From: an uncultured Desulfobulbaceae bacterium
GTDB taxonomy: Bacteria > Desulfobacterota > Desulfobulbia > Desulfobulbales > Desulfocapsaceae
Length of the DNA: 34,050 nucleotides
Direction: 5' to 3'
Assembly: GCA_937132035.1 (NCBI GenBank)
Contig: CAKZOA010000070.1
Coordinates: 1-34,050, forward strand
Shown here: positions 3 through 7,939 of the stretch, in pieces
Numbering within the stretch: position 1 is the first letter of the stretch
Layout: the number at the start of each line of letters is the position of its first letter
Position numbers and translations under genes: made by a program
The notes under the pieces: generated by a model
Seen by the model: only the letters and a program-made list of their open reading frames with translations
What the model was told of the DNA's origin: nothing
Database searches by the model: none

Positions 3-1352
3 CTGGTGCTCGCTGGTTTTGATGGAGAGATCGTTGCCGCCGTTACTGTGCTGGAGGGTCTGCGCTTTTTTCCAGTCGATATTGTCGAGCCGGAGCTTCG
101 GCAGCAACTGCGGGGTGTCGCCGGCATCAGGGCTCTTATTCCGATCTGCAGCCGGAGGATCGCCAGCGAACCCTTCGATCTGCGCAATGGCGACCGGAAA
201 ATCGTCGTCCGGGCCCTCTACCAGTACGGCAGTGCGGTTGTAGACGGCCAGGAGGCGGAGCTGCAGCCGCTGGTTCGCATCGACGAGGTTCGTGGCTACG
301 AATCGGATTTTGAAAAAGCCTCGGAGCTGTTGGCCGATGCCGGTCTCGCGCCGACCGAGGGGCGGAACAGCCTCGATCTGGCCCTGGCAGCGCTTGAGGT
401 GCCACGGCCTTCCTACTCTTCAAAATATGCTCTGGCCCTGGGTGATGACATACGCCTGCGGGATGCCGTCGTCACGATCGGCGGGTATCTTCTTGCCAGC
501 ATGGAGGTAAACCACAGCGGCGTCATCGAGGATATCGATACCGAATTCCTTCACGATTTCCGTATTGCCGTACGCCGCACCCGTTCCCTGTTGTCGCAGA
601 TGAAAAACTACCTTCCCCGGCAGCAACTCGAGTTTTTTCAAAAGGAGTTCAAGTGGCTCGGTTCCGTCACCGGTCCGGTACGCGACCTCGATGTCTATCT
701 GCTGATGAAAGAGGACTATACCGACATGTTGCCCAGGCAGCTGCACCGCGGATTGGAGGAGTTTTTCGTCGAGCTCGGCCGCCAAAGGGCCGAGATGCTG
801 GAGATCATGAATAAGGGTCTGACTTCCGACCGCTACGCCAGGCTCATACGCGAATGGAAGCAGTTCCTCGAGGACGACGGTGAGTCGTTTCCATGGCCCG
901 GTGCACAACAGCGATGCCAGCCCGTGGTCAGAAAGGCCATTCGCCGGCGTTTTCAAAAAATTCTGAAGAAGGGTGCGAGAATTGATGCTCACAGTGCCGA
1001 CAACGATCTGCACAGCTTGAGAATCCAGGGGAAGAAACTTCGGTATATGCTGGAGTTTTTCCGCTCCTTCTATGCCGAGAAGGAGATCGACTTTTTTCAC
1101 AGGCAGATGAAGAAGCTGCAAAACAATCTTGGCGATTTCAATGATATAGCTGTACAGCTGGAGATGCTCGAAGAGTACGGCAATGCTTTGCGCCCAGGCA
1201 GCAAACGCTCGCTGCGCATCAGTGCCGCCGTCGGCGGGCTGATAACCCATCTGTCTCAAAAACACTCGAAGGTTCGGCAGAAATTTGAAAAGACCTTTTC
1301 TGATTTCGCCTCGACGAAAAACCAGAAACGTTTTCAACAAACGCTAGTCTGA
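3..1352 (+). CDS. CYTH/CHAD domain protein, 5' end outside the window
   Basis: The frame is open to the left edge, so the GTG at 6 is probably internal and the N-terminus is missing. The first 120 or so residues look like the end of a CYTH (triphosphate tunnel) domain, with basic and acidic beta strands such as RKIVVRALYQYGSAVV. From about residue 155 a CHAD domain follows: an all-helical domain with conserved histidines and arginines (HDFRIAVRRTRSLL, VRDLDVYL, LHSLRIQGKKLRYMLEFF, LQNNLGDFNDI). CHAD proteins are known to bind polyphosphate and to associate with polyphosphate granules. The gene ends 32 bp before a ParA-type ATPase and is probably in one operon with it and a SixA phosphatase. 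The CHAD call is firm; the CYTH part is less so because it is truncated. Confidence 0.88.
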   Translation: MVLAGFDGEIVAAVTVLEGLRFFPVDIVEPELRQQLRGVAGIRALIPICSRRIASEPFDLRNGDRKIVVRALYQYGSAVVDGQEAELQPLVRIDEVRGYESDFEKASELLADAGLAPTEGRNSLDLALAALEVPRPSYSSKYALALGDDIRLRDAVVTIGGYLLASMEVNHSGVIEDIDTEFLHDFRIAVRRTRSLLSQMKNYLPRQQLEFFQKEFKWLGSVTGPVRDLDVYLLMKEDYTDMLPRQLHRGLEEFFVELGRQRAEMLEIMNKGLTSDRYARLIREWKQFLEDDGESFPWPGAQQRCQPVVRKAIRRRFQKILKKGARIDAHSADNDLHSLRIQGKKLRYMLEFFRSFYAEKEIDFFHRQMKKLQNNLGDFNDIAVQLEMLEEYGNALRPGSKRSLRISAAVGGLITHLSQKHSKVRQKFEKTFSDFASTKNQKRFQQTLV

Positions 1353-1384
1353 TACAAAGAGGGTCGTATCGGAGGGGAGAAGAA

Positions 1385-2122
1385 ATGAAGATACTTGCCG
1401 TATATTGCAGTAAGGGTGGAGTTGGCAAAACTGCAACGAGCGTCAACCTTGCCTATACGGCTTCCCAAAACGGTCTGGCAACCTTGCTCTGCGATCTCGA
1501 TCCCCAGGGCGCTTCGTCCTACTATTTTCGGATTCGGCCCAAGAAAAATTTCAATTCGAAAAAACTTCTGGAAGGCAATATCCGCAAATATATCCGCGCT
1601 ACCGACTTTGACGATCTCGATCTTTTGCCAGCTCATTTCTCCTATCGCAATATGGACCTGAAGCTTGACCGTAAAAAACAGGAGGCGACGGCGCTGCGGG
1701 AGGCTCTCGCTCCTCTGGCAGAAGAGTATGACCTGGTCTTTCTCGACTGTCCCCCCAACCTGACCCTGCTCTCGGAGACCATTATCGCCTCAGCCGATAT
1801 GGTGGTCACTCCGGTGATTCCGACGACGCTTTCCATGCTTTCTCTGGAGCAGCTGCTCAAGCTCTGCAAAAAGATAGGCGTAGATAAGACCAAGATCCAT
1901 GCCTTTTTCTCTATGGCCGAAAAACGCAAATCAATGCACCTCGATACCATCGGTAAATACAGGAAGTACAAGCTCTTCATGAAGGCCGTTATTCCCTATA
2001 TGGCCGAGGTGGAAAAAATGGGCATCACCAGAAAACCCGTCGGTGCAGTCAGAAGCAGATCCGTTGCATCACTGGCCTATGAAAGGCTCTGGAAGGAAGT
2101 TGAACAGCGGGGCCTGGTGTGA
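1385..2122 (+). CDS. ParA/MinD-type P-loop ATPase without a ParB partner
   Basis: This 245-residue protein begins MKILAVYCSKGGVGKT, a deviant Walker A motif with the signature lysine of ParA/MinD ATPases. A Walker A' region (CDLDPQG) and a Walker B-like strand (LVFLDCPPNL) follow. Such ATPases dimerise on ATP, bind the nucleoid or membrane and position a cargo. No ParB, parS-like cluster, chemotaxis gene or replication gene lies nearby, so this is an orphan, cargo-type ParA rather than the chromosomal segregation copy. It sits between a CHAD protein and a SixA phosphatase, and its stop codon overlaps the next start (TGATG at 2120-2124). The start has a good upstream purine stretch (ggaggggagaagaa). 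The family is clear; the cargo is inferred at most. Confidence 0.9.
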   Translation: MKILAVYCSKGGVGKTATSVNLAYTASQNGLATLLCDLDPQGASSYYFRIRPKKNFNSKKLLEGNIRKYIRATDFDDLDLLPAHFSYRNMDLKLDRKKQEATALREALAPLAEEYDLVFLDCPPNLTLLSETIIASADMVVTPVIPTTLSMLSLEQLLKLCKKIGVDKTKIHAFFSMAEKRKSMHLDTIGKYRKYKLFMKAVIPYMAEVEKMGITRKPVGAVRSRSVASLAYERLWKEVEQRGLV

Positions 2123-2625
2123 TGAAAAGGCTATTTTTGATCCGCCATGCCAAATCGAGCTGGAATGATCCGGAGGCCTCGGATTTCGAGAGGAAACTCA
2201 ATAAACGCGGAAAAAGAGACGCCCCCTTCATGGCCCGGCAGCTGGCCGGGCGAACCGGAGCTCCGGACATACTCATTGCCAGCCCGGCCTCTCGGGCGAG
2301 AAAGACGGCGGAGATCATGGCCGACGGTGTTGGGTATGCCCGCAAGTACATCCGCTTCGAGAAAGATGTCTATGATGCCGGCACCCAGGATCTTCTGCGC
2401 ATTGTCCGGTCTCTCGACGACGAATGCCGGAGCGCTTTTGTCGTCGGCCACAATTATGCCATAACCGACTTCGCCGAGCGGCTGACCGGTGAGTCGCTGA
2501 ACAATATCCCCACTTCGGGCATAGTAGCCGTTGACTGCGGCGTCGATCAGTGGCAGCGGCTCGCCTATGGCAACTGTCACCTGCTGTTTTTCGATTTTCC
2601 CAAAAATCATGCCGAACTCCGGTAA
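2122..2625 (+). CDS. sixA: SixA-type phosphohistidine phosphatase (histidine phosphatase superfamily)
   Basis: This protein of about 167 residues starts MKRLFLIRHAKSSW, the RH signature of the histidine phosphatase (phosphoglycerate mutase-like) superfamily in its SixA form. A second catalytic histidine is in VVGHNYAI and the family's GIVAV strand is near the C-terminus. SixA enzymes dephosphorylate phosphohistidine on phosphotransfer proteins. The superfamily also contains phosphoanhydride and polyphosphate-related hydrolases, so the substrate here is open. The ATG at 2122 overlaps the parA stop by one base, which implies translational coupling; a GTG one codon earlier is also possible. Linkage to a CHAD protein suggests a role in phosphate or polyphosphate metabolism, which is inference. 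Confidence 0.85.
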   Translation: MKRLFLIRHAKSSWNDPEASDFERKLNKRGKRDAPFMARQLAGRTGAPDILIASPASRARKTAEIMADGVGYARKYIRFEKDVYDAGTQDLLRIVRSLDDECRSAFVVGHNYAITDFAERLTGESLNNIPTSGIVAVDCGVDQWQRLAYGNCHLLFFDFPKNHAELR

Positions 2626-6538: not shown

Positions 6539-7939
6539 ATGAAAAAATGCTGCATCATACTCCTGCTCCTGCTCTGCACCTCTGCTTCGGTTGTCATGGC
6601 GGAGCAATGCCTGGAGGGGGACTGCATCGACGGAACGGGCACGATACTCCACGAGGACGGTAGAAAATACACGGGTGATTTTGAGAACGGCGTCATTCAT
6701 GGCACCGGCGTTTTTCATTATCCAGACGGCAGCGTCTACGAAGGCGAGTTGGTCGACGGCAAGATGCATGGTCGCGGTGTCCTCACCGGGGCCGATGGCA
6801 GGCGCTATGAAGGCGAGTTTCGCGACAATGTCATAGAGGGTAAAGGCGTGCTCGACATGAGAGACGGCAGCAGGTACACGGGCGAATTTACCCTGGGCCG
6901 CTTCAACGGCAAGGGCCTGCTGGTGTATCCCGACGGCAGACGCTATCGGGGAGACTTTCGAAACAATATCATCCATGGACAGGGCAAACTGACTTATGAG
7001 GACGGCACCTGGTTCGAGGGGCAGTTTCGTAACGGCAGGCCGGCGGGTAATGGTATCAGGTTATATGCCGACGGCAGCCGTTATGAGGGCGAATTCCACA
7101 ATAGTCTCCGCCATGGCCGGGGGGTATATGCCAAAGCCGACGGCCGTGTGTATTCCGGCTCCTTTAAAGACGACGTCTACAACGGCAGCGGCTCGCTTGA
7201 TTTCGGCGACGGCCGCACCTATACCGGAGAATTCAGCATGGGCGCCATCACCGGTGCCGGCACGATGGAGTATGGCGACGGCAGCAGGTATCGCGGTGAT
7301 TTCGTCGATGGAGTCCGGCAGGGCCGGGGTGAGATGGATTATAGTGACGGCAGCAGCTACAGCGGCAAGTTTGTCGACGGAGAGCCTCACGGCAAGGGGC
7401 GCCTGGTTCGTGCTAACGGCGATATTTATGAAGGAGATTTTCAGCGCGGGGTAATACAGGGGGAGGGGGTCCTTTCCCGTAATGGCAAGGTGGTGCATAC
7501 CGGCTCCTTCGAAGATGGCGAACCGGCCTCAAGCGATGAACCGCTGGTGACCGAGGTGGAAAAGAGCGAGGCCCCGGTTGAAGAACTCAGCGAAAACACA
7601 CCTGCTGCCCCCGTCGAGACGGAGGAATTAGTGCTTGTCGACGGTGTGCTGGTCCAGACTTCGGCACCGACGGTTCCCTACAGCGGCGTGGGTTCCTATA
7701 CCTATGCCAACGGCACACTCTATGAAGGCCAGATACAACAGGGCCGGATCTCCGGAGAAGGCCGTATCGATTACGCCAACGGCGACACCTACAGGGGCGA
7801 ATTCAGGGACGGCAAACTCCATGGAACGGGCAGATATGTGTACCGGGACGGGCGCAGCTACGAAGGCGATTTTGTGATGGGGGTGAAACAGGGGGATATT
7901 CAGGTATCCGTTTTCGAGCCAGTACCATGGAGAATTTGA
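6539..7939 (+). CDS. Secreted MORN-repeat protein, main open part (frame broken near 7890)
   Basis: The 466-residue product starts with a Sec signal peptide (MKKCCIILLLLLCTSASVVMA, cut likely after MA). About 16 MORN repeats of 23 residues follow, each of the form DGxxYxGxFxxGxxxGxGxxxY. Twelve are contiguous, then there is an acidic linker (about residues 330-380), then more repeats. MORN arrays form elongated beta structures; the function here is unknown, though an extracytoplasmic place is likely. The last 15 or so residues (from about VKQG) lose the repeat pattern, while the next frame resumes MORN repeats at once, so the natural protein probably ran to 8243. The start ATG is preceded by a purine-rich ccggagaaag. 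Confidence 0.85.
   Translation: MKKCCIILLLLLCTSASVVMAEQCLEGDCIDGTGTILHEDGRKYTGDFENGVIHGTGVFHYPDGSVYEGELVDGKMHGRGVLTGADGRRYEGEFRDNVIEGKGVLDMRDGSRYTGEFTLGRFNGKGLLVYPDGRRYRGDFRNNIIHGQGKLTYEDGTWFEGQFRNGRPAGNGIRLYADGSRYEGEFHNSLRHGRGVYAKADGRVYSGSFKDDVYNGSGSLDFGDGRTYTGEFSMGAITGAGTMEYGDGSRYRGDFVDGVRQGRGEMDYSDGSSYSGKFVDGEPHGKGRLVRANGDIYEGDFQRGVIQGEGVLSRNGKVVHTGSFEDGEPASSDEPLVTEVEKSEAPVEELSENTPAAPVETEELVLVDGVLVQTSAPTVPYSGVGSYTYANGTLYEGQIQQGRISGEGRIDYANGDTYRGEFRDGKLHGTGRYVYRDGRSYEGDFVMGVKQGDIQVSVFEPVPWRI

Follow-up and report, generated by a model that had tools for sequence, protein, structure and literature searches.

AlgP of Pseudomonas aeruginosa spaces polyphosphate granules by acting as a histone-H1-like DNA tether (PMC9239181). 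A 2025 review ties granule spacing to this one DNA-binding protein in P. aeruginosa, records that the granule-spacing proteins of Caulobacter have not been identified, and leaves the use of ATP open (PMC13052382). The CHAD protein of Chlorobium tepidum (CtCHAD; PDB 6qva, 6qv7, 3e0s) has been solved with a polyphosphate chain bound, and mutation of His253, Arg256, Arg260, Arg296, Arg418 or Tyr419 weakens polyphosphate binding (PMC6537752). A survey of ParA/MinD systems that act on cargo names neither CHAD nor polyphosphate (PMC10241942). In Acidithiobacillus, according to the part of the article available, the gene order folD-ppk-parA-CHAD was noted and the ParA was taken to serve plasmid partition (PMC10892726, 2024).

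The text available on CtCHAD does not name a ParA neighbour, and a link between CHAD and ParA was not found in PMC10553843 or PMC6328274. A literature search on polyphosphate granules, ParA and the nucleoid returned no such system by title or abstract. We found no paper proposing or testing a joint function of CHAD and ParA, and no experiment on where they localise; preprints and most subscription papers fell outside the scope of the search, and an earlier description is possible. Here we describe a locus in which an orphan ParA-type ATPase is encoded beside a CHAD protein, and propose, by analogy with other ParA systems and with a probability of about 0.48, that the pair may use ATP to place polyphosphate granules, and to share them out, via CHAD.

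Organisation of the locus

The stretch of DNA analysed (the window) is an entire contig of 34,050 nucleotides (G000:C70:1-34050) from a draft genome of 4.4 Mb in 499 contigs, and statements about the rest of this genome are based on searches of it, for example with Pfam for PPK1 and PPK2. The three genes of the original prediction were found at the start of the window, all on the forward strand and in the order CHAD, parA, SixA-like. The contig begins inside the first open reading frame (3-1352), which lacks its 5' end and encodes a protein whose orthologues are ~520 aa long. A GGAGGG motif read at 1371-1376, 14 bases before the ATG of parA (1385-2122), is the likely ribosome-binding site of that gene. 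The SixA-like reading frame (2119-2625) can start at GTG 2119 or, more likely, at the in-frame ATG that begins at 2122. The stop codon of parA (TGA) occupies 2120-2122, and the predicted one-base overlap of the last two genes is correct if ATG 2122 is the start. Further along, a gene for a MORN-repeat protein (6539-7939) adjoins an aminotransferase gene and is kept in the synteny block of the family.

The same genome encodes PPK1, two PPK2 proteins and a second CHAD protein. Both PPK2 genes lie on another contig (C226), an end of which faces the start of the window contig (C70) by synteny, and we infer that they adjoin the CHAD-parA locus. The second CHAD protein (G000:C191:7526-8179) is short, belongs to another subfamily and has no ParA nearby.

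The CHAD protein

The first protein matched Pfam CHAD (PF05235, E=1.3e-56), with the domain at 492-1169, and its CHAD half matched CtCHAD (6qva/6qv7) with an E value of about 1e-116, placing it in the same subfamily. Six residues (H247, R250, R254, R290, R410 and Y411 in orthologue numbering) were invariant in the alignment, the window copy included, and correspond by motif and spacing to those mutated in CtCHAD. A full-length orthologue modelled with AF2 (pLDDT 92.6) superposed on 6qva with a Z score of 36.6 in a fold search (1.5 A over 307 residues, 37% identity). Residues 1-200 of this orthologue model adopt the TTM/CYTH triphosphate-tunnel fold (Z about 13 against TTM proteins), a domain whose first part is missing from the truncated window copy.

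The protein had been predicted to be of the CYTH/CHAD type. The CHAD assignment stands, while neither the window nor any of eight full-length homologues gave a match to Pfam CYTH, and the ExExK catalytic motif was absent from the alignment rows covering the N-terminus. As modelled, the CYTH domain is real at the level of the fold, with the catalytic motif lost. The CHAD half would bind the polyphosphate granule, making the protein the proposed cargo adaptor, and the N-terminal triphosphate-tunnel fold may serve docking or sensing.

In McdAB-like systems a charged, disordered N-terminus of the partner contacts the ATPase. A constant N-terminus of this kind, long, basic and disordered, was not evident in the CHAD proteins, which may count against a role in positioning; the model of one orthologue (L047) was ordered almost from residue 1, and that of another (L117) had a short N-terminus of low confidence. 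We also compared ParA-linked with unlinked CHAD proteins for a docking site, and several residues were special to the linked copies (K128, G160, Y161, T286, K408 and others). This candidate site was dropped, as most of the 13 unlinked CHADs compared belong to other subfamilies and lack the N-terminal domain, so that the contrast carries little information.

The ParA ATPase

The second gene encodes a ParA/MinD-type ATPase (AAA_31, E=6.4e-37) that belongs to a CHAD-linked ParA subfamily. Residues K10, K15, D37, D39 and D121 are invariant in this family and make up the deviant Walker A motif KGGVGKT, with its signature lysine, and the Walker A' and B motifs. The nearest solved fold to a modelled relative was Soj/ParA (TM 0.82-0.88 by target length), profile searches with the ParA matched Soj, McdA and MinD, and no C-terminal membrane helix was evident. 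In five carrier genomes tested, the CHAD-linked ParA scored 337-350 bits and the next best at most 128. One Bacteroidetes member of the family (L116:5992-7677) runs on into a C-terminal domain that we assigned by eye as a HAD-like phosphatase.

The generic fold, and database names such as plasmid partition, would suit an ATPase that partitions DNA, be it the chromosome or an integrated plasmid, which is how the Acidithiobacillus ParA was read (PMC10892726). The surroundings of the gene argue otherwise. No ParB or parS was found at the locus, and a dedicated ParA-ParB pair is encoded elsewhere in the genome (C480:23050-23781 and C480:23889-24170). Since the ParB of the genome adjoins that separate ParA, the window ParA is an orphan, as had been predicted, and the case of a ParA tied to a distant ParB, which would have spoken against the prediction, was not encountered. 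The window ParA shares only 28% identity with the Soj of its own genome, and the DNA-contact signature NVRLSE of Soj is replaced in its family by an E/D-x-E-K-M-G motif, with E210 in all rows. Phages gave no match, and among 72,556 plasmids just 9 did. These observations make DNA partition in general highly improbable, and partition of a plasmid or phage was rejected on the strength of the separate ParA-ParB pair, the missing phage match and the plasmid count.

The altered signature bears also on the matrix that a positioning ATPase would use. In Myxococcus xanthus ParA, a change of R238 abolishes DNA binding (PMC12462528). This residue aligns with E/D208 of the CHAD-linked family, a position that is acidic in 86% of rows; the equivalence is by alignment, with the chain numbering inferred. 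Replacement of the canonical DNA-binding arginine by an acid counts against positioning on the nucleoid. Four basic residues (R49, R88, K182 and R216) are invariant or nearly so in this family, and the Soj sequences used for comparison have no basic residue at these positions. These residues, the acidic replacement and the fact that CHAD holds the same polymer raise the idea that the matrix of ParA might be polyphosphate, or the surface of the granule, instead of DNA, which we consider rather unlikely.

BcsQ, which has the same fold as ParA and serves cellulose synthesis, provides a model for a different role, and it was among the near folds of the modelled ParA relative. ParA could be a nucleotide switch that governs the synthesis of polyphosphate, the nucleation of granules or their turnover, and not a positioner; cycling between ATP and ADP states, it would bring PPK, CHAD and a phosphohydrolase to the granule and thereby tie the length of the polymer or the number of granules to ATP. 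A ParA family without the DNA-binding arginine is consistent with such a switch. Retention of the deviant Walker A lysine and of the Soj-like fold of positioning ATPases speaks against it, as does the dedicated cargo-binding protein encoded next door, which usually marks a positioning system.

At a locus where the two genes share a frame, we read CHAD through its stop codon into ParA and modelled the product as a single AF2 chain. Both parts were well folded, and the pTM of 0.75 is compatible with more than one packing of the two and does not amount to a resolved interface, which we take as a weak point of ATP-driven positioning through CHAD.

Distribution of the CHAD-ParA pair

Near-relative loci were taken as the 34 that hold a ParA orthologue at >=45% identity (at least 45%). 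CHAD lay directly 5' of ParA in 32 of these 34, and no CHAD adjoined generic ParAs of ~30% identity. At least two genomic backgrounds were seen in the family, with gene names in relatives taken from sequence clusters and reading of the sequences. One has the order argJ-CHAD-parA-(sixA)-MFS, preceded on the opposite strand by one or two PPK2 genes together with genes for a metallophosphoesterase and a cardiolipin-synthase-like protein; in the other, CHAD-parA is divergent from, or near, PPK1. The two backgrounds occur together in one genome (L045 and L064), and a locus from a different family within the order (L058) has CHAD-parA-sixA followed by PPK2.

The ParA alignment was then scanned over ~85,000 species genomes, and the best 80 loci were chosen by ParA similarity alone. 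CHAD was directly 5' of ParA and co-directional with it in 75 of these 80 (73 by script, plus L139 and L143, in which the ParA reading frame had been lengthened by an upstream start); of the remaining five, one begins at a contig edge and four are from Methylococcaceae. The pair occurs in Desulfobacterota, Chlorobi, KSB1, Latescibacterota and Verrucomicrobia, and in alpha-, beta- and gammaproteobacteria. An even sample of 395 Desulfobacterota genomes contained 23 ParA copies in 22 genomes. CHAD adjoined ParA in 19 of the 23 copies and was present in 19/22 ParA-positive genomes, compared with 29/373 of the others. On a tree of 150 ParAs, CHAD linkage required 6 changes against a shuffled mean of 50 (0/500 shuffles), which marks the linkage as an old, clade-bound trait. 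The adjacency of CHAD and ParA is not due to chance.

Distances among CHAD proteins followed those among their ParAs (r=0.80 over 70 pairs; 0/2000 permutations as high), a correlation to which shared ancestry also contributes. The CHAD and ParA of the betaproteobacterium Nitrosomonas europaea are both nearest, after another Nitrosomonas, to alphaproteobacterial pairs (Paracoccus, Falsochrobactrum), which points to co-transfer. These sequence comparisons point to a pair that moves as a unit and is found in unrelated contexts.

Linkage to CHAD does not hold throughout the relatives of this ParA. Among 398 evenly sampled Pseudomonadota genomes, CHAD adjoined only 7 of 69 related ParAs (in 68 genomes), the rest falling mostly in separate stand-alone clades, and we restrict our claim to the clades with CHAD linkage. 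A stand-alone clade that is sister to the CHAD-linked ParAs (L245-L283 and others) was present in ~15% of the sampled Pseudomonadota. On the plasmid pMAQU02 of Marinobacter nauticus (L334), a stand-alone relative has genes for phbB and pyruvate kinase close by, a single case in which a link to another storage granule is possible. Within one genus, two genomes (L054, L055), the exceptions among the 34 near-relative loci, have cleanly lost CHAD from between argJ and parA and have kept parA and both PPK2 genes; one of the two has no CHAD match anywhere in the genome. Both the retention of ParA after loss of CHAD and the existence of a sister clade without CHAD linkage count against positioning of granules via CHAD.

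The same two observations could indicate that the role of ParA is unrelated to granules, and that its adjacency to CHAD reflects inherited operon history without direct contact. Stand-alone relatives in Proteobacteria often lie beside rnfH-like, cysM, uppP or truA-like genes (named by eye). The pair recurs in unrelated contexts and is apparently co-transferred, which speaks against this reading, as does co-occurrence with CHAD at the level of the genome, which extends even to stand-alone ParAs: a strong CHAD match was found in 36/61 genomes with a stand-alone ParA and in 54/330 others (Fisher p about 2e-11, uncorrected for kinship). Among 20 genomes with a stand-alone ParA that we inspected, 11 encode a CHAD protein of 300-360 aa, of another subfamily, with PPK2 in the same stretch. 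We regard a role unrelated to granules as improbable. The combination of a CHAD-only protein of another subfamily and a nearby PPK2, noted above for proteobacterial genomes with a stand-alone ParA, is seen at L319, L321-L326, L328-L330 and L332.

Polyphosphate enzymes and the third gene

A census of the 75 linked loci, which average 10.5 kb each, revealed PPK1 or PPK2 in 17, where about 0.7 would be expected if a genome of 3.5 Mb carries three PPK genes. Other enzymes present were Ppx (7 loci), a CYTH enzyme (15), SixA (16) and NUDIX (4). The predicted link of an orphan ParA with CHAD thus proved deep and recurrent, and often lies beside polyphosphate kinases. The gene that follows ParA in N. 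europaea (L132:6747-7202) is NE1496, 151/151 identical to PDB 2fbl. This CYTH enzyme (NE1496/NeuTTM; PDB 2fbl, 3typ) has been described as a specific tripolyphosphatase, and its position directly 3' of CHAD-ParA suggests that polyphosphate is the likely context in which it acts. A Paracoccus plasmid has the order CHAD-ParA-CYTH-NUDIX.

The enzymes of polyphosphate chemistry encoded around the pair (PPK1, PPK2, Ppx, CYTH tripolyphosphatase, SixA, NUDIX), and the fusion of one ParA to a HAD-like phosphatase domain, speak for the nucleotide switch described above. Weighed with its ParA fold and cargo-binding neighbour, that alternative appears possible, though doubtful.

The window protein encoded by the third gene falls within the histidine phosphatase superfamily (PF00300, His_Phos_1, E=2.3e-10), with 2rfl as its nearest solved structure. 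Its score of 46.8 bits with TIGR00249 is below the cut-off of 74.5 for the SixA equivalog, and the predicted SixA type therefore holds for the superfamily and not for the specific family. Nor did the three genes turn out to form a conserved unit: SixA is present in only 16 of the 75 linked loci, can sit elsewhere, and gives way in other lineages to a gene for a CYTH tripolyphosphatase, a NUDIX protein or Ppx, while CHAD and SixA also recur together without ParA. Conservation of the predicted gene order beyond close relatives extends across phyla for CHAD-ParA and to only part of the loci for SixA. SixA is best read, from these comparisons, as one of several interchangeable, optional phosphohydrolases.

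Discussion

Membership in the CtCHAD subfamily, conservation of the polyphosphate-binding residues, conservation of the pair and its linkage to polyphosphate enzymes together identify CHAD-ParA, by computation, as a polyphosphate-linked module. The link to polyphosphate, which is common to granule positioning and to a nucleotide switch, is very probable. We favour ATP-driven placement of granules via CHAD, for which we infer contact between CHAD and ParA, a ParA matrix and granule movement. The adjacent ParA would be the dedicated ATPase of the CHAD protein. On the model of ParA-ParB and McdA-McdB, CHAD bound to the granule would stimulate ParA dimers held on a cell matrix to hydrolyse ATP, and the gradient of ParA that results would keep the granules spaced and see that both daughter cells receive a share. 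An accessory role may fall to SixA, or in other lineages to a tripolyphosphatase, NUDIX or exopolyphosphatase, as a phosphohydrolase that works on the ends of polyphosphate or on a phosphorylated partner.

CHAD-ParA is the best current candidate for ATP-driven placing or control of polyphosphate granules, and narrows the question of granule spacing to one defined ATPase and one cargo protein that occur in species open to cultivation. If the proposal is true, a cargo would be assigned to a group of orphan ParAs now annotated as plasmid or chromosome partition proteins.

Among known systems, AlgP spaces polyphosphate granules, as is proposed for CHAD-ParA, but is a DNA tether and not an ATPase. 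Chromosomal Soj/ParA of ParABS shares its fold and ATPase motifs with the window ParA, which differs in having no ParB or parS, in its replaced DNA-binding signature and in falling in a separate clade. CtCHAD has the same CHAD subfamily and polyphosphate-binding residues as the window protein, whereas the construct that was crystallised comprises the CHAD half only. At the N. europaea locus, NE1496 directly follows ParA, in the place held by the SixA-like gene in the window. The Acidithiobacillus locus has the same two gene types adjacent to each other and beside ppk; in the portion of that article available, it was described in one genus and without a proposal of joint function (PMC10892726). 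The McdA-McdB system, like other ParA/MinD cargo systems, resembles CHAD-ParA in having the gene of an orphan ParA-type ATPase beside that of a likely organelle-cargo protein. The CHAD-ParA module differs in that the canonical nucleoid-binding arginine is absent from its ATPase and in that the partner is a folded TTM-CHAD protein in place of McdB.
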